Shown here piece after piece: positions 1 to 64,000 of a stretch of 64,000 bases of DNA. How positions within the stretch are numbered: the first letter of the stretch is position 1; each line of letters opens with the position of its first letter. The notes under the pieces were generated by a model that was given only the letters and a program-made list of their open reading frames with translations, had not been told where the DNA came from and searched no databases. The position numbers and the translations under genes are program-made. The DNA lies in NCBI RefSeq assembly GCF_002272925.1, contig NZ_MLAR01000007.1, forward strand, positions 1-64,000, in the 5' to 3' direction. Source of the DNA: Helicobacter sp. 13S00401-1 (GTDB lineage: Bacteria > Campylobacterota > Campylobacteria > Campylobacterales > Helicobacteraceae).

Positions 1-42
1 TCTTAAAAGAAAGCCTTTTTCGGCGTGAGCCAAGGGGAGGGC

Positions 43-127
43 CTCGCTAATTACGTTTCTAGCAAAAATCACGCGTTCGCACTACTGCTCACTTTTCTCG
101 TGATTTTTACACCACGAAACGGGCGAG
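43..127. repeat. Large nested inverted repeat (stem-loop)
   Basis: Three nested pairs of arms line up: CTCGC (43-47) with GCGAG (123-127), CGTTTC (54-59) with GAAACG (116-121), and AAAAATCACG (64-73) with CGTGATTTTT (99-108). The central loop is 25 nt. No T-run follows at the base of the outer stem, so it is not a typical terminator. It could be a structured RNA, a bidirectional signal or a remnant of a mobile sequence; the sequence does not decide. Confidence 0.6.
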
Positions 128-230
128 CTAACGGGCACATTTTAGTGGAATAATTTGCATATATATAATTTTTTATTTTTAAGGAAGCTTCGCTTTGGTT
201 AGAAAAAACATGCAAATAATAAACAGTGTG

Positions 231-290
231 AAAGAGAAAGTGTTGGAATAAAGATTTAGTTAATAGTGTAAAGAGATTGGAACTGCTTAT
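231..290 (+). repeat. Inverted repeat arm, left copy
   Basis: The reverse complement of this 60-base stretch matches 12502-12561 with four mismatches by eye, including an unbroken match of about 34 bases. Weaker similarity continues towards about 181. The two arms lie outside the block that runs from the thioredoxin gene to gdhA. Confidence 0.75.
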
Positions 291-378
291 AAAAAATGAT
301 GTGTTAAAAAATATTGTTGATTTTTGTTAATCTATGACTTGTATCATTGCTTTCATATTAATAAAGGAGTTACCCATC

Positions 379-690
379 ATGGAAAACTTAGTTCAATCAA
401 CTTATAACGATGCTATAAAAAGCGGTGTAGTAGTAGTAGACGTAGGCGCTAACTGGTGTCCAGACTGCAGACGTATCAAACCTGTGGTAGAAGCGATGAG
501 CAAGGAGTATGCTGGTAAGGCAAAGTTTTATGAAGTAGACTTTTCAGAAGAAGAAGCTTTAAAAGATAGCCTAGGCATAAAAAGAATCCCAACTATAATA
601 TTTTATAAAGATGGTGTAGAAGTAGGCACTAGACTAGTAGAGCCAGCTTCAAGAACACCTATAGAAGATGCTTTAAAATCTTTACTTTAA
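379..690 (+). CDS. Thioredoxin family protein with CPDC active site
   Basis: A 103-residue cytoplasmic thioredoxin-fold disulfide reductase. The redox motif is WCPDC (Cys27 and Cys30) instead of the classical WCGPC, and the cis-proline sits in the later IKRIPT segment. Length is normal for a single thioredoxin domain. I chose the ATG at 379 because an AAAGGAG ribosome site ends about 10 bases upstream; the frame is open further upstream but those residues are not thioredoxin-like. A CPDC motif is, from memory, also found in the second thioredoxin of H. pylori, so this is probably the Trx2-type protein and not the main TrxA. It is a single-gene unit followed by a hairpin at 698-724. Confidence 0.9.
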   Translation: MENLVQSTYNDAIKSGVVVVDVGANWCPDCRRIKPVVEAMSKEYAGKAKFYEVDFSEEEALKDSLGIKRIPTIIFYKDGVEVGTRLVEPASRTPIEDALKSLL

Positions 691-697
691 TGATAAA

Positions 698-730
698 TTA
701 GATTCTATATCTCATAGAATCTAAGCTTTT
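698..730 (+). terminator. Hairpin terminator after trx, built from an AGATTCT/AGAATCT pair
   Basis: TTAGATTCTAT (698-708) and ATAGAATCTAA (714-724) form a perfect 11-bp stem with a 5-nt loop, followed by GCTTTTC. It lies 8 bases after the trx stop codon and could also serve the converging hof gene. The stem is an inverted pair of the 7-mer over-represented throughout the window. Confidence 0.7.
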
Positions 731-775
731 CAAGAGCTAGAAGGCTTTTGGAAGGTTTTTCCTCCTAGCAAACTT

Positions 776-2284
776 TTATATATTTTTAGAAAAAGACCCT
801 ATACCAGTAGAAAACTTATAGTCTATATAAAGAAAGACGCTACTTCTATCATCTGTCCTGCCCTCAAAATTATCTGCTACTTTGCTATAAGAGCCAACCT
901 TATAACCTTGATTTGTAACATCTCTAAAGTACTCAAATCTTAGACCAACTCCAAAGTTTTTAAGTGACTGATACATATCAAGATAGATAGACTGCTCATC
1001 ACTCCTAGTGCTAGTTGTGTAGCGTCCAAGCAAGGTCCAAGTAAAGTCACCTATGTGTACATTATGAGTACCACCTACCCACAAGTAAGCATTAAAAGCA
1101 TTTCTAGATACAGCATCTGAAAGTGACTGGCCTATCTCGTACACACTTGAAGTCCAAAAGTCAAACTTTAAGCCCTTATTACCTATAGTGCCTACATATG
1201 CATTAGCATAGCCGAAGTTTTTATAAAGCCCAAGACCAAAGTTATAGTCATGTAAGTTGAAAGTTTGCATTAGCGAGATGTTATAGCTATAGCGATCGAT
1301 TTTTTGACCTCTATAGTAGCGAACACCATTAATGCGCTCTAACCCACGTGCTAGATTCCACTGTTTATCTTGTATGTAAACTCCATAGCCCATAAGTTGA
1401 GTAGTAGACTTTAGATCTCCCCATGTGTAAGTTCCTACTACTTTTCCACCAACTGCAGTAGCGATATTTACCATAAACTGAGTGAAAGGTCTTATAAGTA
1501 AGCTTTTAGAACCATCTTCATTTGATAGTGTTAGGTCTAGACCTCCTATGTGTATACCACTAAGGTTGTAGTATCTTTTTCCATTAACATCATAGTTTTG
1601 ATATATAGCAGTTGGGGCATAGTAGTCATAAAGCCACTGACTATCAGCAAAGGCTCTTCCAAAAGAGCTTACCCACCAAAGTCTAGCTTCATTGTTTCCT
1701 AAAAACTTAGAATGCACACTAGTTTTTATACCTTGCATATGACCACTTAAGTAGTCAGCATCTGAGGCAAAGCGACCTCCCTTAAAGTCAAAGTACTTGC
1801 TTTTAAAGTCTACATAGGCATTATGTATGACTATATTTCTAGTGTGGATTCCATCTGGGTTTAGTGTGTTGCTATATCCACCCCAGTAACCTATGAAGTT
1901 ATAGTTTAAGCCACCTACTGGACTAGCCTGGTCAAAACCATCATTGTTGATAAACTTAGTGGAATCATAGATTAACCCCCCAGCAGTTACACCTACATCA
2001 AAGGTGATAGATGTATCCTCCCAGCCAAACTTCTCACTAGGGTCTATATTTAAGTCTAGTTGGCCAACCATGGTCGAAAAAGATTCTGTAGGATACTGGC
2101 CTTTTGCATTATTTACAGGCTGGTTATTAAAGCCAAACTTTGAAAAAGATCCAGCATATCCATCTATCCTAATCATAGGCTTACTTTCTTTCTTCACACT
2201 CATACTCTCATCAGCATAGCCTAAAGAAAAAACTAAACTTGCTGCTAGTAGCACTCCTGCATTTGTCATTAAACTACCTTTCAC
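776..2284 (-). CDS. Hof-family outer membrane protein (paralogue 1)
   Basis: An outer membrane beta-barrel protein of the Helicobacter Hof/HP_OMP_2 family, probably a porin-like or surface protein. Shared landmarks with its two neighbours are YPTESF, LDLNIDPSEKFGWEDTS, YDSTKF, NAYVDFKSKYFDFKGGR and a C-terminal DDRS...YIDYKFS segment. I chose the GTG at 2284 because AAGGGGGA lies just upstream and the resulting KGS plus signal peptide aligns with the paralogues; the TTG six codons earlier has no ribosome site. The mature part begins after a signal peptide ending near GYA. At 502 residues it matches its paralogues in length. Which solute or ligand it handles cannot be read from sequence. Confidence 0.85.
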   Translation of the reverse strand: MKGSLMTNAGVLLAASLVFSLGYADESMSVKKESKPMIRIDGYAGSFSKFGFNNQPVNNAKGQYPTESFSTMVGQLDLNIDPSEKFGWEDTSITFDVGVTAGGLIYDSTKFINNDGFDQASPVGGLNYNFIGYWGGYSNTLNPDGIHTRNIVIHNAYVDFKSKYFDFKGGRFASDADYLSGHMQGIKTSVHSKFLGNNEARLWWVSSFGRAFADSQWLYDYYAPTAIYQNYDVNGKRYYNLSGIHIGGLDLTLSNEDGSKSLLIRPFTQFMVNIATAVGGKVVGTYTWGDLKSTTQLMGYGVYIQDKQWNLARGLERINGVRYYRGQKIDRYSYNISLMQTFNLHDYNFGLGLYKNFGYANAYVGTIGNKGLKFDFWTSSVYEIGQSLSDAVSRNAFNAYLWVGGTHNVHIGDFTWTLLGRYTTSTRSDEQSIYLDMYQSLKNFGVGLRFEYFRDVTNQGYKVGSYSKVADNFEGRTDDRSSVFLYIDYKFSTGIGSFSKNI

Positions 2285-2686
2285 TAAATCCCCCTTAAGC
2301 AATATTTTGTAATGTGTAATTATTCTAGTGAGTTAGTTTTTTAATGTCAATATTTATTTAGATTGTGTTTATAATGATATGTATATAGAAGGATATATTT
2401 ACCTTTTGAAACGTAAATTTTATAATATCTTACTTTTTTATACACTATCACTAAGAAAAAAGATTAGGGTAGGGTAAGGCAAACTTTAAGTATCTAGTAT
2501 GATGATTTTACTTTTACTTGCAAAACTAGCTTTTAAGAGGCTAGGTAATCTAACACTAAAAAATGCAGTTTTTATAGAATCTAGCTTTTCATAGATAAAG
2601 CTTGCCATGGCTGCAAGTTACACACTTACTTAGCGCATGGTAAGTTTAAATCTATCTATCCACCTTAAAGCTTGCTAGATAAAAAC
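2285..2686. other. Intergenic region between hof paralogues 1 and 2
   Basis: About 400 bases without a gene. The part near hof paralogue 1 holds its promoter (2322-2350, reverse strand). The rest is AT-rich with one AGAATCT copy near 2579. I saw no strong terminator for the upstream hof gene and no pseudogene remnant. Confidence 0.6.
2322..2350 (-). promoter_or_regulatory. Promoter of hof paralogue 1
   Basis: On the reverse strand TTGACA (2345-2350) is followed after exactly 17 bases by TAGAAT (2322-2327), about 40 bases upstream of the chosen start codon. The full -35 box is notable because vegetative promoters of this group usually lack one. Confidence 0.7.
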
Positions 2687-4225
2687 TTATACTTTTTTAT
2701 AAGACTTTCTCATAAAGGCTTTTACTCCTGAAGAGAATTTATAGTCTATATAAAAATAGATATGGCTTCTATCATCAACGCGTGGAGCGAAGTTGCTAGC
2801 TACTTTATTGTAAGAGCCTACCATAAAGCCTCTATTAGTATAATCTCTCATCCATTCAGCAGTGAAACCTACACCAAACATTTTGAATTGTTGATAAAGA
2901 TCTAGAGTTAAAGCTGGCTCTTCTGCTCTATCACTAGTAGTGTATCTTCCTTGTAAACGCCAAGTTAGAGTGCCTATCTTAACATCATGATTACCACCAA
3001 CCCATAGATAAGAAGTAAAAGCCCTCCTTCCAACTACTGCTGAAAGAGACTGTCCTATCTCATAAACTGAGTTTGAGTAAACATCTATATCGCTTAAAGC
3101 ACTATTACCTATTGAACCCATGTAGGCATTAGCCATGCCAAAGTTTTTATACAGTCCAAATCCAAAGTCATAGTTTTTCATATTGAACTTTTGGATTAGG
3201 GCTAGGTTGTAGCTGTTTTGATCTATGACTTGTCCTTTAGCATAACGGATTCCATCTATTAATTGTAAGTTGCCAGGAGTACCTGCTAGATTCCACTCTT
3301 CATTGGCAACTTTTACCCAGTAGCCTTGAAGTGTGGTAGTAGACTTAAAGTCACTATTACCATAAGCTGCTACTGCTTTACCACCTACTGCTGTAAAAAC
3401 GCCTGGTGTAAAGTAGACAAAAGGTCTTAAAAGCACGTTATGACTACCATCTGCGTTTTGCACTTTTATATCTATACCACCTGCATGAACACCTTTTAAG
3501 TTAGGGTTGTTAGCTACACTTCTACCTGTGTTTTCCCAGCCTGCAGTTGGGGCGTAGTAGTCATATAGCCACTCGCTATATGCTTGAGCCCTTCCCCATG
3601 AGCTTTGCCACCAGAATCTTGCTTCATGATCTCCTGCAAACTTAAAGTGCACACTAGTAGTAAAGCCTTGAGTGTAGCCACTAAAGTAGTCAATTTTAGA
3701 TTCATACCTTCCACCTTGGAAGTCAAAGTACTTACTTTTGAAGTTTAAGTAAGCATTATGTACCATTATATTTCTTGCATTATTACCATTTGCACCTTGA
3801 TTTATATAGCCTCCCCAGTAACCAACATAGTTATAGCCTAGACCACCTGTTCCATCAGCTCCACTAAAACCAGAGTTATCAGCAAACTTAGTTGAGTCAT
3901 AGGCTAGTCCACCTAAAGTAGCTCCTATATCAAAGGTCAAAGAAGTATCTTCCCAACCTAGTTTTTCACTAGGGTCTATGTTTAAGTCTAGTTGAGTTAT
4001 AAGGCTAGTAAAAGATTCTGTAGGGTACTGGCCAGTTTTGTTATCTATACTTTGATCATTAAGCCCAAACTTCGAAAAAGTCCCTACGTAGCCATCTAGC
4101 ATCACTATAGGTCTTTTAGCAACTCCAGCCTGATTTACATTAGCGCTTCCTTCTCCAAATGCAAGAGTCCCAACTAAGCTAGCAGCTAAGACTAAAACAC
4201 TTCCTTTTGTAAATATACTTCTCAT
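2687..4225 (-). CDS. Hof-family outer membrane protein (paralogue 2)
   Basis: A 512-residue outer membrane beta-barrel protein, the middle of three tandem Hof paralogues. The signal peptide begins MRSIFTKGSVLVLAASLVG and should be cleaved after FGEG or nearby. It carries the same blocks as its neighbours: GYVGTFSKFG, YPTESFTSLITQLDLNID, a LAYDSTKF loop, and a C-terminal RVDDRSHIYFYIDYKFSSG strand region. AGGAG lies just upstream of the ATG. It is closer in wording to paralogue 3 than to paralogue 1 in the N-terminal third, consistent with local duplication. It has its own TTGACA promoter, so it is not obviously in one operon with the others. Ligand unknown. Confidence 0.87.
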   Translation of the reverse strand: MRSIFTKGSVLVLAASLVGTLAFGEGSANVNQAGVAKRPIVMLDGYVGTFSKFGLNDQSIDNKTGQYPTESFTSLITQLDLNIDPSEKLGWEDTSLTFDIGATLGGLAYDSTKFADNSGFSGADGTGGLGYNYVGYWGGYINQGANGNNARNIMVHNAYLNFKSKYFDFQGGRYESKIDYFSGYTQGFTTSVHFKFAGDHEARFWWQSSWGRAQAYSEWLYDYYAPTAGWENTGRSVANNPNLKGVHAGGIDIKVQNADGSHNVLLRPFVYFTPGVFTAVGGKAVAAYGNSDFKSTTTLQGYWVKVANEEWNLAGTPGNLQLIDGIRYAKGQVIDQNSYNLALIQKFNMKNYDFGFGLYKNFGMANAYMGSIGNSALSDIDVYSNSVYEIGQSLSAVVGRRAFTSYLWVGGNHDVKIGTLTWRLQGRYTTSDRAEEPALTLDLYQQFKMFGVGFTAEWMRDYTNRGFMVGSYNKVASNFAPRVDDRSHIYFYIDYKFSSGVKAFMRKSYKKV

Positions 4226-4261
4226 AATCTACTCCTGTAAATATTGTTTTGGGTGTATTAC

Positions 4262-4290
4262 ATTGTAGTACTAAGAGTGGATGATGTCAA
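4262..4290 (-). promoter_or_regulatory. Promoter of hof paralogue 2
   Basis: Reverse strand TTGACA (4285-4290), 17-base spacer, TACAAT (4262-4267), about 40 bases before the start codon. The bases after the -35 box (TCAT) match those upstream of paralogue 3, so the promoter was probably duplicated with the gene. Confidence 0.7.
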
Positions 4291-4489
4291 TATCATTTAA
4301 TGAACATTTATGTAAAAATGCTAGCAAATTAAAAGTAGCTTTTTAAGTTTTATTTAAGCTAAAAATAACGAAAAAAGGTGATGAAAGTAAAAATAAGCTG
4401 TATAAAAGTAGTATAAAAATGATCTAGCTATAAAAAACTAGATCATTATAAGGAGTAAGTTTAGTTAAAAAAGTAAAGATTTAGTTATC

Positions 4490-9727: not shown

Positions 9728-10366
9728 ATGAAAAAGAAAGTCGTTATCTTCATAGACTGGGAGAACCTAAGAAAGGAGATAGAAAAGATACAAAAAGATA
9801 AAAAATGCATGCATTTTAATAAGACTACCCTAAATTATAACAATGCTACACACATCATGGCTTTAATCTACTCTTTCATAGAAAAAGATGATGACTTACA
9901 AAAGATATTTTTTTATACTGCACCACCCATTGATATGGATGATAACATGAGTGCTAGTGTGGAGATAAAACCTAGAATCCCACAGTATGCAAAAGAGTTT
10001 TTAGATAACATAGTTAAACAGCCCTACGTTGCTTCTAGGCTTGGTATATCAAAGTTTAGAGGTTTTGATGAAGGTGGTAAGCCAATATTTATCCAAAAGC
10101 AAGTTGATATGCTTTTAGGGCTTGATATAGCCCACGTAGTCTATAACAAACTAGCAGATAGAATCTTAATCTTTTCAAAAGATATAGATTTAGTGCCTGC
10201 TTTAAAGTGTGCTAGAACACAAGGAGTTATAACCTTGCTTGCTAACATAAAAGAGGGCTTTGATATGAACTCTGAGCTTATGAAACACTCAGACTTAATC
10301 CGAACAAGAAGTTGTGAGAATATAGTCAGCTACATAGCAAGCAAGATGCAAGAACTACAAAAGTAG
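9728..10366 (+). CDS. NYN-domain (PIN-like) putative nuclease
   Basis: A 212-residue protein with the features of the NYN/LabA (DUF88) group, a PIN-like fold linked to RNA cleavage or processing. The acidic signature residues are visible: FIDWENL at the N-terminus, KQVDMLLGLDIAH in the middle and SKDIDLVPAL after it; these aspartates would coordinate the metal. It has no signal peptide or membrane segment. A TTAAGGATAT ribosome site precedes the ATG. It stands alone between lutC and gdhA with gaps of about 400-500 bases on both sides, so the context gives no clue to its substrate. Nuclease activity is inferred from the family only. Confidence 0.8.
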   Translation: MKKKVVIFIDWENLRKEIEKIQKDKKCMHFNKTTLNYNNATHIMALIYSFIEKDDDLQKIFFYTAPPIDMDDNMSASVEIKPRIPQYAKEFLDNIVKQPYVASRLGISKFRGFDEGGKPIFIQKQVDMLLGLDIAHVVYNKLADRILIFSKDIDLVPALKCARTQGVITLLANIKEGFDMNSELMKHSDLIRTRSCENIVSYIASKMQELQK

Positions 10367-12213
<1,847 letters not shown>

Positions 12214-12388: not shown

Positions 12389-12406
12389 TTAGAATCTAGA
12401 TTCTAA
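12389..12406. repeat. Perfect AGAATCT palindrome
   Basis: TTAGAATCTAGATTCTAA is an 18-base perfect palindrome made of two abutting inverted copies of the over-represented 7-mer. Confidence 0.8.
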
Positions 12407-22818: not shown

Positions 22819-24003
22819 ATGGAAGAAAGTACTTTAGATTCTAAAAACATAGAATCTTTTTTGAAAAACTCCTTTGTATTACTTGGATCAACAGGTAGCA
22901 TAGGGGTTAATGCCCTAAAAGTTATCTCCGCTTTTGATAAAAAGATAGAAGCCCTAAGTGCAGGCAGTAATATAGACTTGCTTAATAGGCAAATAAGTCT
23001 TTATAACCCAAGCCTAGTATGCATAGCTAATAAATGGGATTTAGCTAGGCTAGAAGCTAGGGGGGCTAAGGTATTTGTAGGAGAAGAAGGGCTTTTAGAG
23101 ATGTTAAGTCTTGCTAAGTCAAGATGTGTGATAAACGCCATATCTGGTTTTGCAGGCTTGCACGCTAGCTTAAAAACCCTAGACTTAGATAAAAGCTTAA
23201 TACTTTCTAATAAAGAAAGCTTAGTGATAGCTGGAAGCAGGCTTGAGACAAGTAAGATTATCCCAATTGATAGTGAGCACTTTGGGCTTTGGTATCTTTT
23301 AGAGAGCTTAAGTACTAAAAAAAGTAGTGTTTCTAGGCTAGTTATAACTGCAAGCGGCGGGGCTTTAAGAGATAAAAGTGCTAGCGAGATTATGGAATCT
23401 AAACTAAAAAGTGTCTTAGCCCATCCAAACTGGAAGATGGGCGCACGCATAACAATTGATAGTGCTACTATGGTTAATAAACTCTATGAAGTTCTTGAAA
23501 CCTACTGGCTTTTTAAAGATATAAATCCTAAGCTAAAGATAGATGCTTTGATTGAAAGAAGCTCAAGTGTGCACTCCTTAGTTGAACTAGAAGATGGAAG
23601 TTTACTAGCCCACTTAGCAAGTCCAGACATGAAGCTACCTCTTAGCTTTGGGATAGCAGGTAAAGAGGCTTTTGAAAAGCCTATAATCAAAAAGCTAGAT
23701 TTAAAAGATTTGCTAAAAATAGACTTTAGAGATATAGACTGTGACTTATATCCTTTATGGAGATATAAAGACTTGCTATTAGAAAAGCCATATTTAGGTG
23801 CTGTGCTTAATGCTAGCAATGAAGTAGCAGTTGAAGGCTTTTTAAATGATAATCTCCCTTTAAAAGTGATACTAGACATAGTAAGTTTTGCCCTAGAAAC
23901 TTTTAAAGATTCTAAGATAGGTGAAGATTTAAAAGACTTACTAGACCTTCATAAGGCTGCTAAAGATCTAGCGATAAAACGTCTTCAAAGACATCTAGCT
24001 TAA
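22819..24003 (+). CDS. dxr: 1-deoxy-D-xylulose 5-phosphate reductoisomerase
   Basis: A 394-residue cytoplasmic enzyme, second step of the MEP isoprenoid pathway, using NADPH and a divalent metal. Visible motifs are the NADPH loop GSTGSIG, SNKESLV, IDSEH (metal ligands), SGGALRD, HPNWKMG and NASNEVAVEGF. The N-terminus is about 20 residues longer than usual before the Rossmann loop, and no strong ribosome site precedes the ATG, so the start may be further in. The extra segment contains an inverted AGATTCT/AGAATCT pair. Confidence 0.95.
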   Translation: MEESTLDSKNIESFLKNSFVLLGSTGSIGVNALKVISAFDKKIEALSAGSNIDLLNRQISLYNPSLVCIANKWDLARLEARGAKVFVGEEGLLEMLSLAKSRCVINAISGFAGLHASLKTLDLDKSLILSNKESLVIAGSRLETSKIIPIDSEHFGLWYLLESLSTKKSSVSRLVITASGGALRDKSASEIMESKLKSVLAHPNWKMGARITIDSATMVNKLYEVLETYWLFKDINPKLKIDALIERSSSVHSLVELEDGSLLAHLASPDMKLPLSFGIAGKEAFEKPIIKKLDLKDLLKIDFRDIDCDLYPLWRYKDLLLEKPYLGAVLNASNEVAVEGFLNDNLPLKVILDIVSFALETFKDSKIGEDLKDLLDLHKAAKDLAIKRLQRHLA

Positions 24004-25775: not shown

Positions 25776-26648
25776 ATGGCATATAATCAAGCTAAAAAGT
25801 TAGATGACCTACTAGACAAACGTAAATGCAATAAATCTAACATTAAGTATATTTCCGTAACTTCAGGCAAAGGTGGAGTAGGGAAGTCTACAATCAGTGC
25901 TAACCTCGCATACAAGCTTAGTAAGCTAGGTTATAAAGTTGGAGTTTTTGATGCTGATATAGGCTTAGCTAACTTAGATCTTATCTTTGGCGTTAAGGTA
26001 GAACATAGCCTTTTAGATGTTTTAAAAGGCTATGCTAGCATAGATGATATTATCCATAAAGTTGATCAAAACTTATATCTTATACCTGGCGATAGTGGCG
26101 AAGAGATACTAAAGTATGCACAAAACAACATAGTGGAATCTATAATTGATAAAAGTTCCATACTTGACACTCTAGACTATCTTATCATAGATACAGGAGC
26201 AGGCATAGGCGCGCTTAATCAAGCCACTTTAAAAGCTAGCGAGTATATAATCGTAGTTACCATGCCAGATCCTTCAGCCATAACTGATGCCTATACTACT
26301 ATTAAGATTAATGCAGATTCTAAGTCTGAGATATTTATGATTATAAATATGTGCAAAGATCAAAGCGAGGCAAAGTCAGTTTTTTCTAGAATCCAAACCA
26401 TAGCTAAGAAAAATATCCCCACTATGAACCTTAAGTTCCTTGGAGGGTTAGAGAGTAATGCAGCTGTAAATAGAGCCACTAGAAATAGATCTCTTATAGC
26501 TAAAGTTGAGCCATTTAACCCAGTATCTGTAGAGTTAGGAGACATCGCATTAAGACTTCATAATGAAGTTAACAGTTTGGAACAAAACATGCTTTCAGAC
26601 CGTAAAGGCTTTAATAGCTTTTTTAGGCGTATGCTAAGTTATATATAG
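25776..26648 (+). CDS. flhG: Flagellar number regulator FlhG, MinD-like ATPase
   Basis: A 290-residue ParA/MinD-type ATPase (also called YlxH) that limits polar flagella together with the GTPase FlhF. The deviant Walker A TSGKGGVGKST is near residue 33, followed by FDADIGLANLDL and a Walker B-like DYLIIDTGAGIG. I chose the ATG at 25776 because GGAG lies 6 bases upstream and the product then begins MAYNQAKKLDDL, like other FlhG proteins. A TTG nine codons earlier has no ribosome site. It opens the flagellar cluster. flhF, which usually precedes it, is not in this window. Confidence 0.93.
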   Translation: MAYNQAKKLDDLLDKRKCNKSNIKYISVTSGKGGVGKSTISANLAYKLSKLGYKVGVFDADIGLANLDLIFGVKVEHSLLDVLKGYASIDDIIHKVDQNLYLIPGDSGEEILKYAQNNIVESIIDKSSILDTLDYLIIDTGAGIGALNQATLKASEYIIVVTMPDPSAITDAYTTIKINADSKSEIFMIINMCKDQSEAKSVFSRIQTIAKKNIPTMNLKFLGGLESNAAVNRATRNRSLIAKVEPFNPVSVELGDIALRLHNEVNSLEQNMLSDRKGFNSFFRRMLSYI

Positions 26649-27685: not shown

Positions 27686-28750
27686 ATGGCTAAGATTCTA
27701 AGTCAAGAAGAGATAGATTCCCTACTAAATGTTATGGATGAAGACGGAGATGGATTTGAAGGTGGGGATCTTGTAGACCTTGCAACAGAAAAGCAAGTTA
27801 TAGTATATGACTTTAGAAGGCCAAATCGAGTAAGCCGTGAGCAGCTAAGAAGTTTTAGAAGCATACATGATAAGATGGCTAGAAACTTATCTAACCAGAT
27901 ATCAGCCATCATGAGAAGTATAGTTGAAATCCAACTTCACTCAGTAGACCAGATGACTTATGGTGAGTTTTTAATGTCCCTTCCAACTCCTACTAGTTTT
28001 AACGTTTTTTCCATGAAGCCTATGGATGGTGCTGGAGTATGTGAGATAAACCCAACTATTGCCTTTCCTATGATAGATAGGCTTTTAGGTGGTAGGGGTG
28101 ATCAGTATGAAGGAACGCGCGAGTTTACAAACATAGAGCTTAACTTACTAGATACTATCTTACGTCAGATTATGCAAAATCTAAAAGAAGCTTGGGCGCC
28201 TATAGCAGATATCTTCCCAAGTGTAGATGCTAAAGAATCTAGCCCAAACGTAGTTCAAATAGTTGCACAAAATGAAGTAGTAGTAATGGTTGTTATGGAA
28301 ATAGTGATAGGGCATAGTAGTGGGATGATGAATCTTTGCTATCCAGTTATATCTCTTGAAACTATACTAAGTCGTCTTGCAAGTAGAGATTTGCTTATGA
28401 GTGAGACTAGTGGTAAAAAGTCACGTAATAAAGAATTGCAAGCTTTAATCGGTGGGGCAGATGTTAATGTCTCTGCAATCTTAGGCAGTACAAATATAAG
28501 CCTAAAAGATATCTTAGAGTTAAAAGTTGGAGATGTCATAAGACTAGATAAAGTAGCTGATGATGTAGTTACAGTTAATATAGATGGTAGAGAAAAGTAT
28601 GCAGCAAGTATCGGTCTTCAACGATATAGAAAAACCATACAGATAAAAGAAGAGATAAGAACTGAAAAAGATAAACTAAAAGAAGTTATACAGATGCTTG
28701 AAACTCAAAGAAAGTCAAAAGTTAATGATATACAAGAGGAAGATGTATGA
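27686..28750 (+). CDS. fliM: Flagellar motor switch protein FliM
   Basis: A 354-residue C-ring protein that receives CheY-phosphate and sets the direction of rotation. The N-terminal CheY-binding peptide LSQEEIDSLLN is exact, followed by the middle domain (YDFRRPNRVSREQLRSF, DQMTYGEFLMSLP) and a C-terminal FliN-like domain (ILGSTNISLKDILELKVGDVIRLDK). The ATG follows GGAGCGTAACC. Its stop overlaps the start of fliY by four bases (ATGA), implying translational coupling. Confidence 0.96.
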   Translation: MAKILSQEEIDSLLNVMDEDGDGFEGGDLVDLATEKQVIVYDFRRPNRVSREQLRSFRSIHDKMARNLSNQISAIMRSIVEIQLHSVDQMTYGEFLMSLPTPTSFNVFSMKPMDGAGVCEINPTIAFPMIDRLLGGRGDQYEGTREFTNIELNLLDTILRQIMQNLKEAWAPIADIFPSVDAKESSPNVVQIVAQNEVVVMVVMEIVIGHSSGMMNLCYPVISLETILSRLASRDLLMSETSGKKSRNKELQALIGGADVNVSAILGSTNISLKDILELKVGDVIRLDKVADDVVTVNIDGREKYAASIGLQRYRKTIQIKEEIRTEKDKLKEVIQMLETQRKSKVNDIQEEDV

Positions 28751-41763: not shown

Positions 41764-42210
41764 ATGGATACAAATGCGATATTACTAAACCTTAGCGGTA
41801 AGCTCCCAAAAGATTCCATAGCCCTTGGTATATTAAAAGAAAAGCTAGATAAGCTAAGTGATAAGCAAAGAGATGAGTTTTATCAAAAAGTTATTATGGC
41901 AAGGTTAAAGTCTCCTAGCCTAATCTTTTGGGTGGGAAGTTTTCTTTTTGGCAGCCTTGGCGTTGGGCGATTTATGGTAGGGGATATCTTACTTGGCATT
42001 ATTAGATTAGCTTTATCTATAGTGTTTATAGTACTTACCCTTGTTGATAAAACTAATCTTGAAAACTATAACTTTATGCTAACCTCATCAGATGCTAGCG
42101 TAGGTGGGATGCTGCTATGGGCTATTAAAGCATGGTGGTTTATAGATTTGTTTTTAGTGGGAAAGAGGGCAAGGGATCTAAATATGAAAAAGTGTCTAGA
42201 GCTTTTATAA
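41764..42210 (+). CDS. TM2-domain membrane protein
   Basis: A 148-residue protein with a helical soluble N-terminus (residues 1-50) and three or so hydrophobic segments. The block PSLIFWVGSFLFGSLGVGRFMVGD matches the TM2 domain (glycine-rich turn with a GxxRF motif), a small family of unknown function. It ends with KKCLELL. AGAGGAAAAG precedes the ATG. It stands between gpmI and mnmA (reverse strand). I cannot assign a function. Confidence 0.8.
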   Translation: MDTNAILLNLSGKLPKDSIALGILKEKLDKLSDKQRDEFYQKVIMARLKSPSLIFWVGSFLFGSLGVGRFMVGDILLGIIRLALSIVFIVLTLVDKTNLENYNFMLTSSDASVGGMLLWAIKAWWFIDLFLVGKRARDLNMKKCLELL

Positions 42211-42342
42211 GATAAAAATTATGCAGAGTCATATATAAAAAATTAGACTAATTAAAAAGAGATTCTATATTTCTTAAAAGGCTATATTTTGATGCCTTAT
42301 ATATACGCTAAAAGCCTTATTAAAATTATAGAATCTATATTA

Positions 42343-42393: not shown

Positions 42394-43434
42394 TTAAACT
42401 ATAACTCCACCGCCTACTACGATATCATCATTATATATAACTAGAGCTTGGCCTTTAGCTACGCCAAAGACTGGCTCTTCTAAGTTTGCGACTATGGTGT
42501 TATCTTCATTTAAAGTAACTTTAGCAGGGCTTAAAGAGCTTCTATAACGTACTTTTACATTATAGATTCCATTTGTAAAGTTTTCTGGCAGAGACTTATT
42601 TATAGCCTTAACTTCAAAGGTCTCTAAGTCTTTTTTTTCACCTACTATTATTTGGTTAGTCTTAGGATTTATATCTAGCACAAAGTGAGGAGTGAGTGCG
42701 CCTTTTACACTAAAACCTTTACGCTTGCCTATGGTGTATTGCATATAGCCTTTATGCTTGCCAACTACTTTTCCATTTATATCTAAAACTTCGCCTTCTT
42801 TGTCTACTTCAACATGCTTTTGTAATAAATCTATATAGCTTTTATCTACAAAGCAAATCTCTTGGCTTTCTTTATAAGTTTCTAGACTACCAAGAAAGGG
42901 CATCTCTTTTAAGGCTTTAGGCTTTATGTCAACTTTTTTCATATCTCCTAGTGGGAAGACTAGCCTATCTAGCGCGTCTTGACTTAGTGCGTATAAAAAG
43001 TAGCTTTGATCTTTAGAAGTATCTAGGGCGCATTTTATACGATTTACCCCATTTAGCTTTTCTATCCTTGCATAATGTCCTGTAGCTATAAACTCACAAC
43101 CTAGGCTTTTAGCTTTATCTAAGGCTAGGCCAAACTTCATTAAAGGATTACAAACTGCGCAAGGATTAGGAGTTATGCCTTCTTTATAGCTATCTATAAA
43201 GTAGTCATACACACTTTCTTTAAACTCATCCTTAGCATCAACTACTATAAAGTCTATGTTTAGATGGCGGCTTACGTTTTCACAGTTTTTTATAAAGACG
43301 TTATGTTTTTCTTCTTTGGTGTGTAGTTTAAGATACATGCCTAAGACCTCATAACCTTGTTCTTTTAACAAGTATGCACAATATGAGCTATCAACTCCAC
43401 CACTCATTAAAAGAGCAATCTTTTTACTTTTCAT
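42394..43434 (-). CDS. mnmA: tRNA 2-thiouridylase MnmA
   Basis: A 346-residue enzyme that thiolates U34 of Lys, Glu and Gln tRNAs. The PP-loop [15 protein letters not shown] opens the protein, and the catalytic cysteines are in NPCAVCN and SQEICFVD. The [11 protein letters not shown] and KVRYRS blocks of the C-terminal domains are present. Length is typical. It lies alone on the reverse strand, back to back with the OMP gene; a TATAAT at 43503 is readable on both strands and could serve both. Confidence 0.95.
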
Positions 43435-46949: not shown

Positions 46950-47921
46950 ATGCACTTTATGAAAAGACTTTTATTATGTAGTACGCCTTTGATATTTAGC
47001 ATCACTCTAGCACAAGACTTAAACAAAGCCCCAACTAGCGATGCGCCTACTACTACTAAAGCCTCAAGTTCAACTTCCATAAAAAAAGATTCTATGACTA
47101 CATCTTCTAAAGATACTAGCAAGGATGCAAAGTCTGATGTAGTTGGTGGTATAGCCATATTAGTTAATAGAGAGCCTATAACTTTATATGAGATATCTAA
47201 CCTAGAAAAGACTATGAAGATAGGTAAAAAAGAAGCCATAAAACTTTTGATAGATAATAAGCTAAAAGATGAAGAAATAAGACGCCTTAAGATAGTAGTC
47301 AGTGATGATGATGTAGATTCTCAAATCAACTCTTTAGCTAAGCAAAACCATATGAGCTTAGATCAGTTCTATACAGAAGTAGAGAAGCAAGGCTTCACTC
47401 TTAGCTCTTATAGAAAAAAGCTAAAAGAGCAAATGGTAGATAACAATCTTTTTGGAAAAATCTTATATAGCTCTAATAACATAGGCCAAGATGATGAACT
47501 AAGAGACTACTACAACAAGCACCAAGAAGAGTTTAATATACCAAAGGCTATAGATACAGTTAAGTATGTAGCTAATAATAAAGAGCTTTTAGAAAAGTTT
47601 ATAAAATCTAAAGATACTAAGAACCTACCAAAAGGTATAGCAAAAGACACAGAAAAAGTAGAGCTAAAAGACTTACCACCACAAGTTGCAGACTTGCTTA
47701 TAGCTAGTAAAGAAGGCAACTTTAGTCCAGTGCTTCAAAGCGATGCTAACACTTTTGTTAGCTTTTTTATAACCAAAAAAGAAGATATAGAGCATATCGA
47801 CTTTCAAAAGGCTAAAAACTATATAGTTCAAAAACTAATAGCTACTAAGCAAGAACAGATTCTTTCAGAGTATTTTGCAAAAGTAAAAGCTAGGTCTAAT
47901 ATTGAAATATTAAGAGATTAA
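46950..47921 (+). CDS. Periplasmic SurA-like chaperone
   Basis: A 323-residue exported protein with a signal peptide (MKRLLLCSTPLIFSITLAQ), a Ser/Thr/Lys-rich linker to about residue 65, then a SurA N-terminal chaperone-type domain (IAILVNREPITLYEISNLEKT, IDNKLKDEEIRRLKI). The part after residue 185 is a shortened or degenerate parvulin region; no clear isomerase active site is visible. It probably helps outer membrane protein folding. The gene order with the TPR protein and rnhA matches HP0659-HP0661 of H. pylori. The stop overlaps the next start by one base. Confidence 0.8.
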   Translation: MHFMKRLLLCSTPLIFSITLAQDLNKAPTSDAPTTTKASSSTSIKKDSMTTSSKDTSKDAKSDVVGGIAILVNREPITLYEISNLEKTMKIGKKEAIKLLIDNKLKDEEIRRLKIVVSDDDVDSQINSLAKQNHMSLDQFYTEVEKQGFTLSSYRKKLKEQMVDNNLFGKILYSSNNIGQDDELRDYYNKHQEEFNIPKAIDTVKYVANNKELLEKFIKSKDTKNLPKGIAKDTEKVELKDLPPQVADLLIASKEGNFSPVLQSDANTFVSFFITKKEDIEHIDFQKAKNYIVQKLIATKQEQILSEYFAKVKARSNIEILRD

Positions 47922-48985
47922 TGCAAAGTATCATCGAGCTATATCGCGACCCTATATTTGGTATCATAATCTTATGTGCCATAGTTGCTGTGGTCGCCAT
48001 AGCTGACTACTCAAGACTAAAACTAAAAAGAAAAAACAAAAAACACTCACTTGAAGTTTTAAGTAAGAAGTTTGAGATATCAAATATCAATGAAGGCATA
48101 AAGCAGTTTGCAAAAACTACGGCTAATCCAAAAGCTACCCTCCTTCCTATAGCCAAAACCTACGCAAAAGCTGGTAATCACGAACAGGCTATAAGTATAT
48201 ACACTACCTTACTAGATAACCTAAATAGCACTCAAGATAAGATAGAAGTTTTAGAAGAACTAGGGGTTAGCTACTTTGATGCTGGATTTTTGCAAAGAGC
48301 TAAGGGGATATTTTTAGAAGTACTTAAAAACTTTCCTAATAATATACAAATGCTAAGTTATTTGATGAGAAGTTATGAGTTTATGGGGCAGTATCAAAAA
48401 GCGCTAGAAACGCTAACTTGTATAGATGAAGCTCAGAATCTAGATTCTAACCAAAAGCTTTTTGATATCAAAAAAAACCAAAGCTACCTAGAAGCTATGC
48501 TAGTAATCTCTCATAATAGATACTCTATAAATGAAAAGATAGATAAGCTGCTTAAGATTTTAGCTAGTGATGGAAGTGTGAAGGCTCTTGTTTTAAGACA
48601 CTTTAAGACTTATAATGTCCATTTGTTTTGGCAAGAGATAAACAAAATAGAAGATGTGCAAAACTATATAGATATACTTTGGGACTTTAGTATACAAGAG
48701 GTTCCTTTTAACTATCTTAGTAACGAAAGAGTGCTAGATATTTATAGAGCTAAAGGTTTTATAAGTGATGAAAGAGAGATAGATCTTTTTGCCTTAGAGG
48801 CTTTACGTGTGCTGCATAAACATTCTCACTTAAAAGGGACTTTAGAGTTTAGCTATAGATGTAATGTATGTCAGGGTGTAGTGCCTTTTTACTCGCACAG
48901 ATGCCCAATTTGTAGCTCTATAGATACTATGGTGCTTAAAGTTAGTCCAATTGGTGTTAAGACATTAAATCAAGGAAGTTTTTAG
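47921..48985 (+). CDS. TPR protein with C-terminal zinc ribbon, LapB/YciM-like
   Basis: A 354-residue inner membrane-anchored protein. One transmembrane helix lies at about residues 13-30, then TPR-type helices (PIAKTYAKAGNHEQAISIYTT, FDAGFLQRAKGIFLEVLKNF, YEFMGQYQKALETL), and a C-terminal rubredoxin-like zinc ribbon YRCNVCQ...HRCPICSS near residues 315-335. This order (helix, TPRs, two CxxC pairs) is that of E. coli LapB/YciM, which controls LPS synthesis through LpxC turnover. The H. pylori counterpart HP0660 is uncharacterised as far as I know. The LapB role is inferred from architecture. Confidence 0.75.
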   Translation: MQSIIELYRDPIFGIIILCAIVAVVAIADYSRLKLKRKNKKHSLEVLSKKFEISNINEGIKQFAKTTANPKATLLPIAKTYAKAGNHEQAISIYTTLLDNLNSTQDKIEVLEELGVSYFDAGFLQRAKGIFLEVLKNFPNNIQMLSYLMRSYEFMGQYQKALETLTCIDEAQNLDSNQKLFDIKKNQSYLEAMLVISHNRYSINEKIDKLLKILASDGSVKALVLRHFKTYNVHLFWQEINKIEDVQNYIDILWDFSIQEVPFNYLSNERVLDIYRAKGFISDEREIDLFALEALRVLHKHSHLKGTLEFSYRCNVCQGVVPFYSHRCPICSSIDTMVLKVSPIGVKTLNQGSF

Positions 48986-49446: not shown

Positions 49447-49448
49447 GT

Positions 49449-51383: not shown

Positions 51384-52430
51384 TTATCTTTTCAGATCTT
51401 TTGCTTTTTTACCTTGCTCACTGTTTGGATACATGAGTACTAAAGTATTTAAAAATTTACCATAATTTGCGTTATCTTTTAAGTATCTATAAGACCAAGC
51501 AGTATGCCAAAGTAAGATAGGCATATAACTTGCCTTGTCGTCAAGAGTGACACTAGACTTAAAATAAGAGAGGGCGTTAGTGTATGATTTCTGCGCGTAG
51601 GCTATCTCACCTAGGTAAAAGTTAGCCTCCGCTACATGATAGTTTTTTTCTATAAGACGCTCAAAAAGTTTAGTTGCAGAATCTAGATTCTTTTTTCTAA
51701 AAAAAGATTTGGCCTGTCTTAGCACATCAGCATTACTCATGCTAGACAAAACTTCATCTCCTAGGCTTGATTGCGTAGTTTCTGTCTTATCTTCAGTGAC
51801 TTTTTTAATAGGCGCATTGATCTGATTTTGCAAGCTTATGGCATTACTTTGCAAAGCCTTTGCTTGAGTGCTTAGGGCTTGAAGCTGGGCAAGTATGTCA
51901 TTGTTTGCTTTTAGTAACACTTCTGAAAGAGTATCTATCTTTTTATCTAAGTCTTTTATACGCTGGGAGTTTTCATCTATCTGAGTTTTTAAAGAGTTTA
52001 TAGTAGTACTTTGAGCACTTTGAGCCTTGTAGTAAGAGTTCATAGTGTTTTCCATAGTGGCTATCTTAGCACTTTGTTCTTTTAAAGCTAGAGAATCTTG
52101 CCTGCTAGTTACACTAAAGCCTTCATATAGACTTTTTAACCCATCAACACCTTGTTCAAGATTTTGTATCCTAGATTGAAAGTCACCTATAACAAATTGA
52201 GTCTTTTCTGAACTGCTTTGAAGTTCTTTCATCTCCTGCTTTGTTGCCCCACTTTGTATCTCAAAGGCTGAAGGCTCTAAAGCATATAAATGGCTAGCAA
52301 AAAATAGACCAGTAAAGATAGCAATAGAGCCTTTTAATAAGGGTTTTTTAAGCAAAAAACCCTTAACGCCAATACTTTTACCACCTAGTCTGCTTTTATG
52401 TCTGGCCTTCAAAGCAGTTTTTATCAACAT
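51384..52430 (-). CDS. cpoB: Tol-Pal cell division coordinator CpoB/YbgF
   Basis: A 348-residue periplasmic protein. A long basic N-terminus (residues 1-35) leads to a hydrophobic export segment near 36-50, then a coiled coil (residues about 65-185, heptads like KTQIDENSQRIKDLDKKIDTL) and TPR repeats at the C-terminus (VLRQAKSFFRKKNLDSATKLFERLI, ANFYLGEIAYAQKSYTNALSYFK). Same position as HP1124 in H. pylori. It coordinates Tol-Pal with cell wall synthesis at division in other bacteria. The basic N-terminal stretch is longer than usual and the start could be further in. Confidence 0.88.
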   Translation of the reverse strand: MLIKTALKARHKSRLGGKSIGVKGFLLKKPLLKGSIAIFTGLFFASHLYALEPSAFEIQSGATKQEMKELQSSSEKTQFVIGDFQSRIQNLEQGVDGLKSLYEGFSVTSRQDSLALKEQSAKIATMENTMNSYYKAQSAQSTTINSLKTQIDENSQRIKDLDKKIDTLSEVLLKANNDILAQLQALSTQAKALQSNAISLQNQINAPIKKVTEDKTETTQSSLGDEVLSSMSNADVLRQAKSFFRKKNLDSATKLFERLIEKNYHVAEANFYLGEIAYAQKSYTNALSYFKSSVTLDDKASYMPILLWHTAWSYRYLKDNANYGKFLNTLVLMYPNSEQGKKAKDLKR

Positions 52431-56824: not shown

Positions 56825-58246
<1,422 letters not shown>

Positions 58247-59152: not shown

Positions 59153-59164
59153 AGCTATGCCTTA

Positions 59165-60676: not shown

Positions 60677-60711
60677 AACTTTTCCTTTGAGTTTAATTTA
60701 TCTAATTTGGG

Positions 60712-61245
60712 TTAAATTGCTTTTAAAATGTAGTTTTGCAGTTCTTGAACAAAACGCTCTTTTGAAAAGGCTATCTCCACACCTAAATCAACCACGCTTA
60801 GTCTTATGCTTTCTACTGGCTCTACTGACTGAGATAGATTAAGGGTTATATTAAGCCTTTTTTCTACATTTGACTTAAGGCTTTCTAGTACGCTTCCACT
60901 TACTTCTTTGTTTACATGTAAAACTCCATCATAGAGTTTATTTTTAGAATCTATAAAGTGTTTTAGCTCTACTACTAAAAATGGTATAAGCTCTAGGCGG
61001 TTGTTAGTTGTCAAAAGTACTAGTAGATTTTCTAACTTATCATTTCTAGAGCTTGCAAGAGAAAGCACTAGCTTTATCTTCTCTTCTTTTAAGACGGCAT
61101 GTGAATGTATGATAGTACAGAACTTTTCAAGCTCAAAAGCACCAGCAACTTCTTTAAGTTTAAGGTACATATCTCTTAACTCTTCCTCACTGCAGCTAGC
61201 AACTATGGCTTTTGCATACTTTCTTGCGACTACATTTAACTGCAT
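60712..61245 (-). CDS. atpH: ATP synthase subunit delta
   Basis: A 177-residue F1 subunit that ties the peripheral stalk to the top of F1. The N-terminal VARKYAKAIV helix and the C-terminal SVVDLGVEIAF segment fit the family; the sequence is otherwise weakly conserved, as usual. Its start overlaps the atpF stop by one base. Confidence 0.92.
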   Translation of the reverse strand: MQLNVVARKYAKAIVASCSEEELRDMYLKLKEVAGAFELEKFCTIIHSHAVLKEEKIKLVLSLASSRNDKLENLLVLLTTNNRLELIPFLVVELKHFIDSKNKLYDGVLHVNKEVSGSVLESLKSNVEKRLNITLNLSQSVEPVESIRLSVVDLGVEIAFSKERFVQELQNYILKAI

Positions 61246-61766
61246 TAAGCAACCTTCCTATCTAAGATGTTGAGATAATCAGCTATATCTAAATCCATCT
61301 CTTTACTACTAAAGGCTTCTTGTAATATCTCTGTGATAATTGCTTTTTCAAAAGCTTTATATTCAAAGTCTTCAGCTTCTTCATTAGCCTTTGCAAGATG
61401 GGCTATTTGCTCTCTAGCCTTAGCATTTATATGCTCTGCCATCACTTGGACTTCTTTTCTTGTAGTAGCAACTATATCTTCAGCATGAACTTTTGCTTCT
61501 TGAAGTTTTATTTGAGCTTTTTTAAGCTTTTCTTTAGAGATTTCACTTTGTTTTTGTGCATCATCTAACTGCTTTAATATGCCTTCTGATCTCTCTTTTA
61601 GTACTACTTTAAATTTATCTGCTACCAAAAACCATAACAAGATGATAAATAATATAAAGTTCATAAGCCTAGGAGTTATATCAGTGTGTGAGACTACCAT
61701 AGGATGATCAGCAGCAAATATAAAAGCGGAACTAAAAAATGCAAAGATTACAGTGAGTTTAAGCAT
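61245..61766 (-). CDS. atpF: ATP synthase subunit b
   Basis: A 173-residue peripheral stalk subunit with an N-terminal signal-like hydrophobic stretch, a transmembrane segment (RLMNFILFIILLWFLVADKF) and a long charged coiled coil. It pairs with the b' type subunit encoded just upstream to form an asymmetric stalk, which is the usual arrangement in epsilonproteobacteria. Confidence 0.92.
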   Translation of the reverse strand: MLKLTVIFAFFSSAFIFAADHPMVVSHTDITPRLMNFILFIILLWFLVADKFKVVLKERSEGILKQLDDAQKQSEISKEKLKKAQIKLQEAKVHAEDIVATTRKEVQVMAEHINAKAREQIAHLAKANEEAEDFEYKAFEKAIITEILQEAFSSKEMDLDIADYLNILDRKVA

Positions 61767-61778
61767 TAAGTCCTCCCC

Positions 61779-62210
61779 CTATACGTTTCTAATTTTTTTA
61801 CTTAACATAGAATCTAAGTCTAGTAAGTGTTCTTTTATCTTAGCTTTTAGTAAAGGCTTTTGCTCGCGTAAGTTAGCTTTAAAAGCATCTAATTTTGCCT
61901 TATTTTCTTGTAAAGCTTTTTCTATAGAGTCATTAGCAGCGTCTTTTGCTTTTTTAGTTTCTGATTCTATAAGCATGTGGGCTTCATGCTTAGCTTTTTG
62001 AAGTATATCTTGTGTTTCTCTCTCAAGTGCAGTGATCTCATCTTGATTACTATGAGCGTCTATTAAATCTTGTCTTATGTGTTCATCTCTTTTGTCCATG
62101 AAGCCTATCATAGGCTTGAAAACAAACTTGTTCATTAGATACATAGTTATTAAAAATACTACGAAGACAAGTATCATGACGTATATATTAGGTTCTATCT
62201 GCATTGGCAC
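61779..62210 (-). CDS. atpF': ATP synthase subunit b'
   Basis: A 143-residue second peripheral stalk subunit with one N-terminal transmembrane helix (IYVMILVFVVFLITMYLMNKFVF) and a charged coiled coil (KHEAHMLIESETKKAKDAAND). It lies 50 bases after parB and 12 bases before atpF. The b/b' pair matches H. pylori HP1136-HP1137. Confidence 0.9.
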   Translation of the reverse strand: MPMQIEPNIYVMILVFVVFLITMYLMNKFVFKPMIGFMDKRDEHIRQDLIDAHSNQDEITALERETQDILQKAKHEAHMLIESETKKAKDAANDSIEKALQENKAKLDAFKANLREQKPLLKAKIKEHLLDLDSMLSKKIRNV

Positions 62211-62260
62211 CCTTATGTTTTTAGATGTGTTAAGATGACTGGGCTACATTCTAGCAAATT

Positions 62261-63211
62261 TTACTTAATATTAGCCTGAATGATGTCTAACAACCTTGAT
62301 ATATCTTCATCGCTTAAAAGCTTGATATTTATAGAATCTTTTTTCAAGCCGGCCTTAAAGCCTAGAGATTTTAAGGTGCTTAGTAGATTTTGTAAATTAG
62401 GGTTATGATTGAAGGATACTTTTCCATTTAAGTTTTTTTCTTTAAAAAGTTTATCTTTACTTAACTTCTTTCCCTCTTCATCCTTAAAATTTTCTTCATC
62501 TTCATTGTGATTAGTTTGTATCCAAAACTCTCCACTTTTTAGTTCTCTTGCTAGGTTTTCTGTTTCTTTTACGCTTAAGTTCTCATCAACTATCTTTTTT
62601 ACTATAAAGTTTTCATCATCTTCGCTTAGACCAACTATAACTTTTGCGTGGGCTTGAGTTAGCTTTCCTTGTAGTATGTAATCTTGTGTAGCCTTACTTA
62701 AGTCTAAGATTCTAAGAGTATTTGTTATTTGCGTGCGTGACTTTTTTATCTTTTGTGCAAGTTTTTCATGAGTGAAGCCATATTCATCTATTAAAGATTT
62801 ATAGCTAGTTGCTAGCTCTAGTGGGTTAAGATTCTCTCTTTGTATATTTTCTATTAGGGCTAGTTCCCTTAAAGACTCTTCTTTTACATCCTCTAAAACT
62901 ATAGCTTTAATACTTTCTAGGCCTAAAAGTTTAGAAGCCCTAAGACGTCTTTCCCCAGCTATTAACACATAGCCTTTTTCATCTTTATAAACTAAGACTG
63001 GTTGGAGTAAACCATGCTCTTTTATAGAAGAAGCAAGTTCATGTAATCTATCATCATTAAAACTAACTCGTGGCTGTTTTGGATTAGGCCTTATTAGATT
63101 TATATCTAAATCAAAGGGCTTTAAGCTTTCAGTTACTTCTTTATAAAACTCCTCTGCATCTCCTAAGATATCGCCTAGTCCGCGCCCCAAAGCTATCTTT
63201 TTTGCCATCAC
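62261..63211 (-). CDS. parB: Chromosome partitioning protein ParB/Spo0J
   Basis: A 316-residue DNA-binding CTPase that loads on parS sites. It has the N-terminal KIALGRGLGDIL motif, the CTP-binding ParB/Srx domain (NPKQPRVSF, VLIAGERRLRASKLLGL), the arginine-rich ENIQRENLNPLE, and a helix-turn-helix (THEKLAQKIKKSRTQITNTLRILDL). The GTG at 63211 or the ATG at 63208 may be the start; both overlap the soj stop. The usual TGTTTCACGTGAAACA parS site was not noticed in this window. Confidence 0.95.
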   Translation of the reverse strand: MMAKKIALGRGLGDILGDAEEFYKEVTESLKPFDLDINLIRPNPKQPRVSFNDDRLHELASSIKEHGLLQPVLVYKDEKGYVLIAGERRLRASKLLGLESIKAIVLEDVKEESLRELALIENIQRENLNPLELATSYKSLIDEYGFTHEKLAQKIKKSRTQITNTLRILDLSKATQDYILQGKLTQAHAKVIVGLSEDDENFIVKKIVDENLSVKETENLARELKSGEFWIQTNHNEDEENFKDEEGKKLSKDKLFKEKNLNGKVSFNHNPNLQNLLSTLKSLGFKAGLKKDSINIKLLSDEDISRLLDIIQANIK

Positions 63212-64000
63212 GCTTGTACGGCCTTAGTTGACTTGTTATATAAGCTTAATATCGCGTGTGCAAGGTTTGTATAAGCTACATTACCTGCTGACTTACTATC
63301 ATACATAGATATAGGCTTTCCAAAGCTTGGGGCTTCAGCTAGTTTTATATTTCTAGGGATAGATATCTTTGCTCCTTTAGCATCTATGAAAAATTTTCCT
63401 GAGAAGTGATTACACAAGTCTTCATATATGCTTTTTGATAAGTTGTTAGTGCTTGAGAACATAGTTGGTAAAAAGCCCATTATCCTAAGATGAGGATTTA
63501 CGTTGCTATTTTTTAAAAGCTTTACTGTGTTAAGCAACTGTGATAATCCTTCTAATGCAAAGTACTCACACTGCACTGGCACTATTACAGAATCTGCGCT
63601 ACTTAGGGCATTTATAGTTAGAGGTCCAAGGGCTGGAGGAGAGTCAATGATGATAAAATCAAAATTCTTTCTAATCTCTTGTATGCACCCTTTTAGTATG
63701 TACTCTCTTTGGTTTTTCTTTTTTCCATAAAAGTCTTGTTCTATAGTTACTAAGTGTAGGCTTGAAGGAGCTAACTTTAAGTTTGGTATATCTGTGTCAA
63801 GTAAGATTTTTTCTAAACTAGTATTACCAAGTAGCACGTGTAATATATTGTGTTCTATGTTGTTTACTTTAAACCCTAGGCTAGTTGTTGCATTAGTTTG
63901 AGGATCAAAGTCTATAAGCAAAACCTTTTTGTTGGCATTAGCCAAACTTGCTGCTAGATTAACTGCTGTAGTTGTTTTCCCTACTCCACCTTTTTGGTTT
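63208..64000 (-). CDS. soj: Chromosome partitioning ATPase ParA/Soj, 5' end outside window
   Basis: A partial gene; the window edge cuts the first few codons. The deviant Walker A loop NQKGGVGKTTTAVNLA is encoded right at the edge (to 63999), followed by LIDFDPQTNATTSLG, the Walker B-like FIIIDSPPALGP and the IPRNIKLAEAPSFG block. It acts with ParB in chromosome segregation. It is the first visible gene of the reverse-strand run down to slyD. An internal TTG at 63945 is not the true start because the family motif lies before it. Confidence 0.95.
   Translation of the reverse strand, partial: NQKGGVGKTTTAVNLAASLANANKKVLLIDFDPQTNATTSLGFKVNNIEHNILHVLLGNTSLEKILLDTDIPNLKLAPSSLHLVTIEQDFYGKKKNQREYILKGCIQEIRKNFDFIIIDSPPALGPLTINALSSADSVIVPVQCEYFALEGLSQLLNTVKLLKNSNVNPHLRIMGFLPTMFSSTNNLSKSIYEDLCNHFSGKFFIDAKGAKISIPRNIKLAEAPSFGKPISMYDSKSAGNVAYTNLAHAILSLYNKSTKAVQA

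Follow-up and report, generated by a model that had tools for sequence, protein, structure and literature searches.

A window of 64,000 nucleotides of Helicobacter sp. 13S00401-1 (the source genome; contig NZ_MLAR01000007.1, positions 1 to 64,000) carried an array of the 7-mer AGATTCT and its reverse complement AGAATCT, together written AGAWTCT. The array is real, strong and family-wide in Helicobacteraceae, and apparently undescribed; no report of this motif or of any Helicobacter uptake sequence was found in the open-access literature. Judged from sequence comparisons, the motif is probably a DNA uptake sequence (DUS) that is read by a competence pseudopilin in the non-gastric members of the family. 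The window (1..64000, both strands) contained 97 copies (43 AGATTCT and 54 AGAATCT), distributed along its full length with a mean spacing of ~640 bp, which was close to random, and no strand bias. An earlier note on this DNA had given about 95 copies by eye and a hand estimate of 15 from base composition; the computed expectation from composition alone was 160 per 738 kb or ~14 per 64 kb, and both figures were close.

The whole source genome (1.835 Mb) had 2833 AGAWTCT compared to 777 copies of a control word, which was AGAWTCT reversed without complementing. Codon shuffles and this reversed word were preferred to Markov models of order k-2 built on the window, in which the signal is masked since the motif influences the counts of its own sub-words. 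When synonymous codons were permuted within each gene for 621 open reading frames (ORFs) of at least 100 aa in 735 kb of the source genome, 966 copies were observed compared to 234 ± 15 in the shuffles (4.1×), with a maximum of 270 among 60 shuffles. AGAWTCT ranked first among 7141 7-mer pairs in this test and AGATTCC/GGAATCT ranked second. Intergenic DNA of the 735-kb sample had 210 copies compared to 23.5 expected under an order-2 Markov model (~9×), and the density was 1.97 per kb between genes and 1.54 per kb within them. The earlier note had asked for a codon-preserving shuffle and for a test of intergenic enrichment; similar counts were not obtained by the shuffle, the intergenic enrichment was present, and the motif was, as the note had stated, at least as dense between genes.

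The consensus from all oriented GAATC sites in the genus of the source genome (g1) was T-R-GAATC-T-A (TRGAATCTA), with flank frequencies of T 0.69 at -2, A/G 0.66/0.28 at -1, T 0.82 at +1 and A 0.50 at +2. AGATTCC/GGAATCT was enriched ~6-9 fold while the mirror AGAATCC/GGATTCT was enriched only 1.0-1.85 fold, which showed that the motif is directional and wider than the 7-mer. The source genome had 452 AGATTCC and 92 of the mirror AGAATCC, and was therefore without the exact palindrome of words of the type of the highly iterated palindrome HIP1. Within genes, 732 of the 966 copies (76%) were in the phase xxA-GAW-TCT, which encodes Asp/Glu-Ser. Serine following GAW used the TCT codon in 45% compared to 22% elsewhere, and the base preceding GAW-TCT was A in 82% compared to 51% for other GAW. 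Asp-Ser pairs were in excess (1.24) and Glu-Ser pairs barely so (1.04), which implies little cost at the protein level. Several reading frames were used, as the earlier note had claimed: the AGATTCT in fliM (27693..27699, + strand) was in phase xAG-ATT-CTx as Lys-Ile-Leu, while that in flhG (26315..26321, + strand) was in the favoured phase xxA-GAT-TCT as Asp-Ser. The majority of copies, however, share one phase.

Placement was also uneven between genes, with 3.79 copies per kb in convergent gaps compared to 1.66-1.67 per kb in tandem and divergent gaps. Of the pairs of copies no more than 60 bp apart, 62 were inverted and 26 had the same orientation. On a 274-kb contig, 222 copies were forward and 213 reverse, and strand use was equal on either side of the GC-skew sign change. 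In comparison with congeners at ~82% DNA identity, four control words kept 17-54% of their sites while AGAWTCT kept 62%, and sites that had changed most often read AGATTCC/GGAATCT, the other accepted form.

The family survey covered 121 Helicobacteraceae genomes, 87 outside genus g2 and 34 within it. Genus g2 appears to be the H. pylori-type gastric genus, an assignment whose basis includes its universal VirB8/ComB8-type protein. All 87 non-g2 genomes had AGAWTCT above the control word, with ratios from 1.07 to 25.5; the extreme was G042 (g3), whose 2.7 Mb contained 16,584 copies, ~6 per kb, by far the highest density found. The 34 g2 genomes had ratios of 0.25-1.39 and as a group no such array. 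Other Campylobacterales families sampled had no comparable enrichment except for one genome of a sister family (f2), G121, with 1412 copies compared to 455; some of these families had low control counts, yet merely a few hundred AGAWTCT. A survey based on AspS added four named Helicobacter loci of 21.7 kb each, which contained 57 copies in H. cinaedi, 79 in H. magdeburgensis, 34 in Helicobacter sp. 11S02629-2 and 8 in H. cholecystus. Overall, the array is a trait of non-gastric Helicobacteraceae which extends beyond one window and which the H. pylori group lacks.

The GAATC core was common to every motif-rich genome sampled while the flanks varied by species. The dialects were TRGAATCTA in g1, TTAGAATCTA in G042, CCTAGAATCCACTT in G053 and R-GAATC-G in G120; in 80-kb samples from G099 (g9) and G107 (g10), whose genera are weakly enriched, little or no flank signal was seen. 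G053 had 2496 copies of TAGAATCCA compared to 248-796 in its four congeners, split between strands as 1235 and 1261. In addition, G053 had 163 AGAATCC and 8 AGATTCC, an asymmetry opposite to that of the source genome. The 8-mer AGATTCTA reached 5.8 per kb in the G042 sample; for comparison, the densest dialect in PMC3630211 is kingDUS, at 5918 copies in 2.4 Mb.

The T2SSF platform protein of an uptake machine resembling a type IV pilus (T4P) or type II secretion system (T2SS) was present in 86 of 87 non-g2 genomes, the exception being a genome 67% complete, and in none of 33 g2 genomes. A VirB8/ComB8-type protein was found in 33 of 33 g2 genomes and was patchy outside g2, while ComEC was found in 118 of 120 family genomes. 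In H. pylori, ComB functions in DNA uptake (PMC6247508). The motif tracks the pilus-type machine and is missing where the machine is missing. The source genome encoded a main pilin at G000:C15:226393-226977 and, at C3:22172-22846, a larger protein that resembles a pilin. Many motif genomes had a small basic pilin with four cysteines adjoining the main pilin, which is a candidate receptor, and its profile had no match in any g2 genome tested. Within g4, the dialect-switched G053 shared 79-80% identity with G049 and G051 in this four-Cys pilin, 89-91% in the main pilin and 83-86% in a 230-aa pilin. The four-Cys pilin as a putative receptor is only a lead because its profile finds no match in g1.

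In the proposed mechanism, a minor pilin (pseudopilin) of the T4P/T2SS-like apparatus would bind double-stranded DNA in which T-R-GAATC-T-A, or the dialect of the species, is present. Retraction would draw the bound DNA in, ComEC would pass one strand and this strand would recombine. Alleles bearing the motif would be imported oftener, and copies would accumulate by molecular drive where protein sequence permits, chiefly at synonymous positions and in convergent gaps, where inverted pairs could serve as terminators too. The H. pylori-type gastric genus has no pilus-type machine, a VirB8/ComB-type type IV secretion system (T4SS) gene and no array, and the motif may have been lost there after the machine was switched. 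The evidence leans slightly towards a third uptake-sequence system that evolved independently, differs in dialect between species and belongs to a third family in a further phylum (Campylobacterota); the H. pylori lineage would have lost both this system and the pilus-type machine on becoming dependent on the ComB T4SS.

Mobile DNA was compared with its hosts. Prophage-like remnants with tail tape-measure genes were seen on three contigs (L018:12095-16425, L010:7003-10595 and L006:1-4700), and L018 also had a phage-type methyltransferase gene. The prophage-like pieces of the source genome had 12 of the wider motif compared to 28 as usual. Related prophages in three g5 hosts had 1.61, 2.27 and 1.70 copies per kb compared to 1.76, 2.50 and 2.85 per kb in the hosts, and a related prophage in the motif-poor G109 was at chance level (0.47 compared to 0.44). 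The terminase of G056 was identical to that of a named H. jaachi prophage. A T4SS element of G053 (L251, G053:C4:1-14000) had 27 AGAWTCT and 2 TAGAATCC/GGATTCTA, the wrong dialect for its host, which suggests a recent arrival from an AGAWTCT host. Mobile DNA thus tends to carry the motif of the hosts it has lived in. In Neisseria, islands are often strongly depleted of DUS and islands with foreign DUS dialects occur (PMC7371117).

Several results weigh against an uptake sequence. The correlation with the machinery rests on one clade and so represents one evolutionary event. The machine is at most a necessary factor, since the motif is lacking in other families that possess one. The basic four-Cys pilin profile had no match in the source genome, in its congener G102 (g1) or in the motif-richest G042. 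Some genera, g10 and g8, showed small enrichment, with ratios from 1.07. AGAWTCT is an odd palindrome with a near-palindromic core, unlike DUS and the uptake signal sequence (USS) of Pasteurellaceae. The g5 prophages had 60-92% of host motif density, and 17 T4SS-gene regions had a median of 0.64 of host density (range 0.17-1.52). These prophage and T4SS levels can fit an uptake signal, but the depletion is weaker than in Neisseria islands, which leaves room for Chi-like or mutational explanations. The uptake-sequence-like character proposed by the earlier note was therefore partly supported. Over-representation, a directional core with dialects, synonymous placement, inverted pairs, convergent-gap enrichment, lack of strand bias and a T4P/T2SS-like machine agreed with it, while the near-palindromic core and mobile DNA that was not consistently poor in the motif agreed less well. 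It is the best supported of the explanations tested.

An unlikely alternative is a methylation-linked, HIP1-like highly iterated palindrome, in which a methyltransferase acting on GAWTC/AGAWTCT would give the motif a methylation-dependent role or make it a self mark for uptake. The palindromic core contains GANTC, and the source genome encodes a full-length CcrM/HinfI-type GANTC methyltransferase (PDB 6pbd CcrM, E 7.6e-91) with a weak RAMA-domain match at G000:C47:60771-61892, with no other ORF of at least 200 aa within ~1.1 kb. Precedents exist in cyanobacteria, where HIP1 enrichment accompanies methyltransferases (PMC4390886), and in C. jejuni, in which recognition of self DNA depends on a methylated motif, RAATTY (PMC8468864). 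However, the CcrM/HinfI-type gene was missing from G102, a congener of the source genome with 2748 copies, from G110 (4666 copies) and from G120, and many g2 genomes that lack the motif encode it; a shorter relative was likewise patchy and often broken. The methyltransferase was thus not coextensive with the motif as for HIP1, and the dialects are directional and reach past any palindrome. GANTC methylation by the CcrM/HinfI-type enzyme, a GANTC site having been pointed out in the earlier note, was rejected as the common cause on this patchy distribution.

It is quite unlikely that the array arose from biased mutation or repair, in which an editing or mismatch-repair-like process would turn near-matches into a functionless motif. 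One-mismatch neighbours of AGAWTCT in genes were depleted overall (2272 observed compared to ~2896 expected), with AGASTCT at 0.17 and ANATTCT at 0.22-0.27, and resident phages gain the motif too. Neighbour depletion would also be expected under biased import, though, and AATT words are avoided generally in the source genome. The process would require a context of 8-12 bases that differs between sister species, enrichment varied with gene arrangement (3.79 compared to 1.66 per kb), and the G053 T4SS element retains its foreign dialect, which argues against fast host-wide conversion. A simple GASTC to GAWTC conversion was rejected as AGASTCT losses were far too few for the AGAWTCT excess. GASTC was strongly avoided (118 compared to 537 in the codon shuffle, 0.22; 735 kb) while GAWTC was enriched, and GASTC was also low in most family genomes sampled. 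Among 7-mers, the strongest avoidance was of words with AATT (AAATTT, AAAATT, AATTTA), perhaps from restriction-site avoidance, which recalls RAATTY of C. jejuni.

A Chi-like hotspot is very unlikely. RecBCD/AddAB would recognise the motif, spare self DNA and promote repair, and phages would carry the motif for protection. The prophage densities fit this, as does the finding that two Mu-like prophages in which Gam nuclease-inhibitor genes are annotated were less enriched than two without, in hosts that differ. Chi in well-studied bacteria is strongly co-oriented with replication. Here the strands were equal on both GC-skew sides and also in G053, no co-orientation was found, and a Chi or segregation signal was rejected on this lack of strand bias; inverted pairs and the convergent-gap preference would also be left unexplained. 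Finally, ordinary codon or dipeptide bias or composition, which the single phase of 76% of coding copies might suggest, has a negligible probability and was ruled out by the codon-preserving shuffle, which yielded a quarter of the count, with intergenic density exceeding genic density and the motif not seen in other Campylobacterales of varied composition.

All seven palindromes and inverted pairs listed in the earlier note for the window were present. The inverted pair TTAGATTCTATATCTCATAGAATCTAA (698..724) formed a terminator-like stem-loop 8 bp past an ORF ending at 690, and the stretch 690-735 had a predicted folding energy of -12.2 kcal/mol. The pair AGAATCT...AGATTCT (10470..10494) was between an ORF ending at 10366 and one starting at 10861, the hairpin-forming pair AGATTCT...AGAATCT (22836..22857) was followed by a T run, and a widely spaced inverted pair (42260..42336) was between convergent ORFs (41764-42210, + strand and 42394-43434, - strand). 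A perfect 18-bp palindrome, TTAGAATCTAGATTCTAA, with two abutting copies was found at 12389..12406. The perfect palindrome AGAATCTAGATTCT was found twice, at 48435..48448 within ORF 47921-48985 and at 51678..51691 within ORF 51384-52430. Elsewhere in the source genome (G000:C1:28459-28600), four AGATTCT were exactly 45 bp apart, which suggests a tandem repeat. C runs of at least 8 were ~18-fold above expectation in the source genome sample and are likely phase-variable tracts.

The array resembles the DUS of Neisseriaceae, which is read by the minor pilin ComP, in its thousands of copies, short common core, dialects following phylogeny, inverted pairs, T4P-type competence machine and islands with foreign dialect. 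It differs in its unrelated sequence, its GAATC core in a near-palindrome and its prophages, which often carry the motif. Like the USS, it has a directional core whose preferred flanks are AT-rich, many terminator-forming inverted pairs and synonymous placement, but it is near-palindromic and unrelated in sequence and phylum. Like cyanobacterial HIP1 (GCGATCGC), it is a highly iterated palindromic word, genic and intergenic, which contains a methyltransferase site; unlike HIP1, it is directional, forms dialects, is confined to lineages with the pilus-type uptake machine and is uncoupled from the GANTC methyltransferase. The CtsM-methylated RAATTY self-recognition of C. jejuni shares the order, the kind of uptake machine and the aim of own-DNA uptake. 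However, the C. jejuni signal is a methylated site, and the other Campylobacterales families are without a comparable AGAWTCT array.

Even with a different function, a word repeated up to six times per kb of a bacterial genome demands explanation. If the motif is an uptake sequence, a third case would show that uptake signals evolve repeatedly, and one family would offer a natural experiment with gain, dialect change and apparent loss, in which the debate between selection and molecular drive would become testable. It would also guide genetic work on the non-gastric species and would be relevant to the absence of such a signal in the H. pylori lineage and its presence in the relatives.

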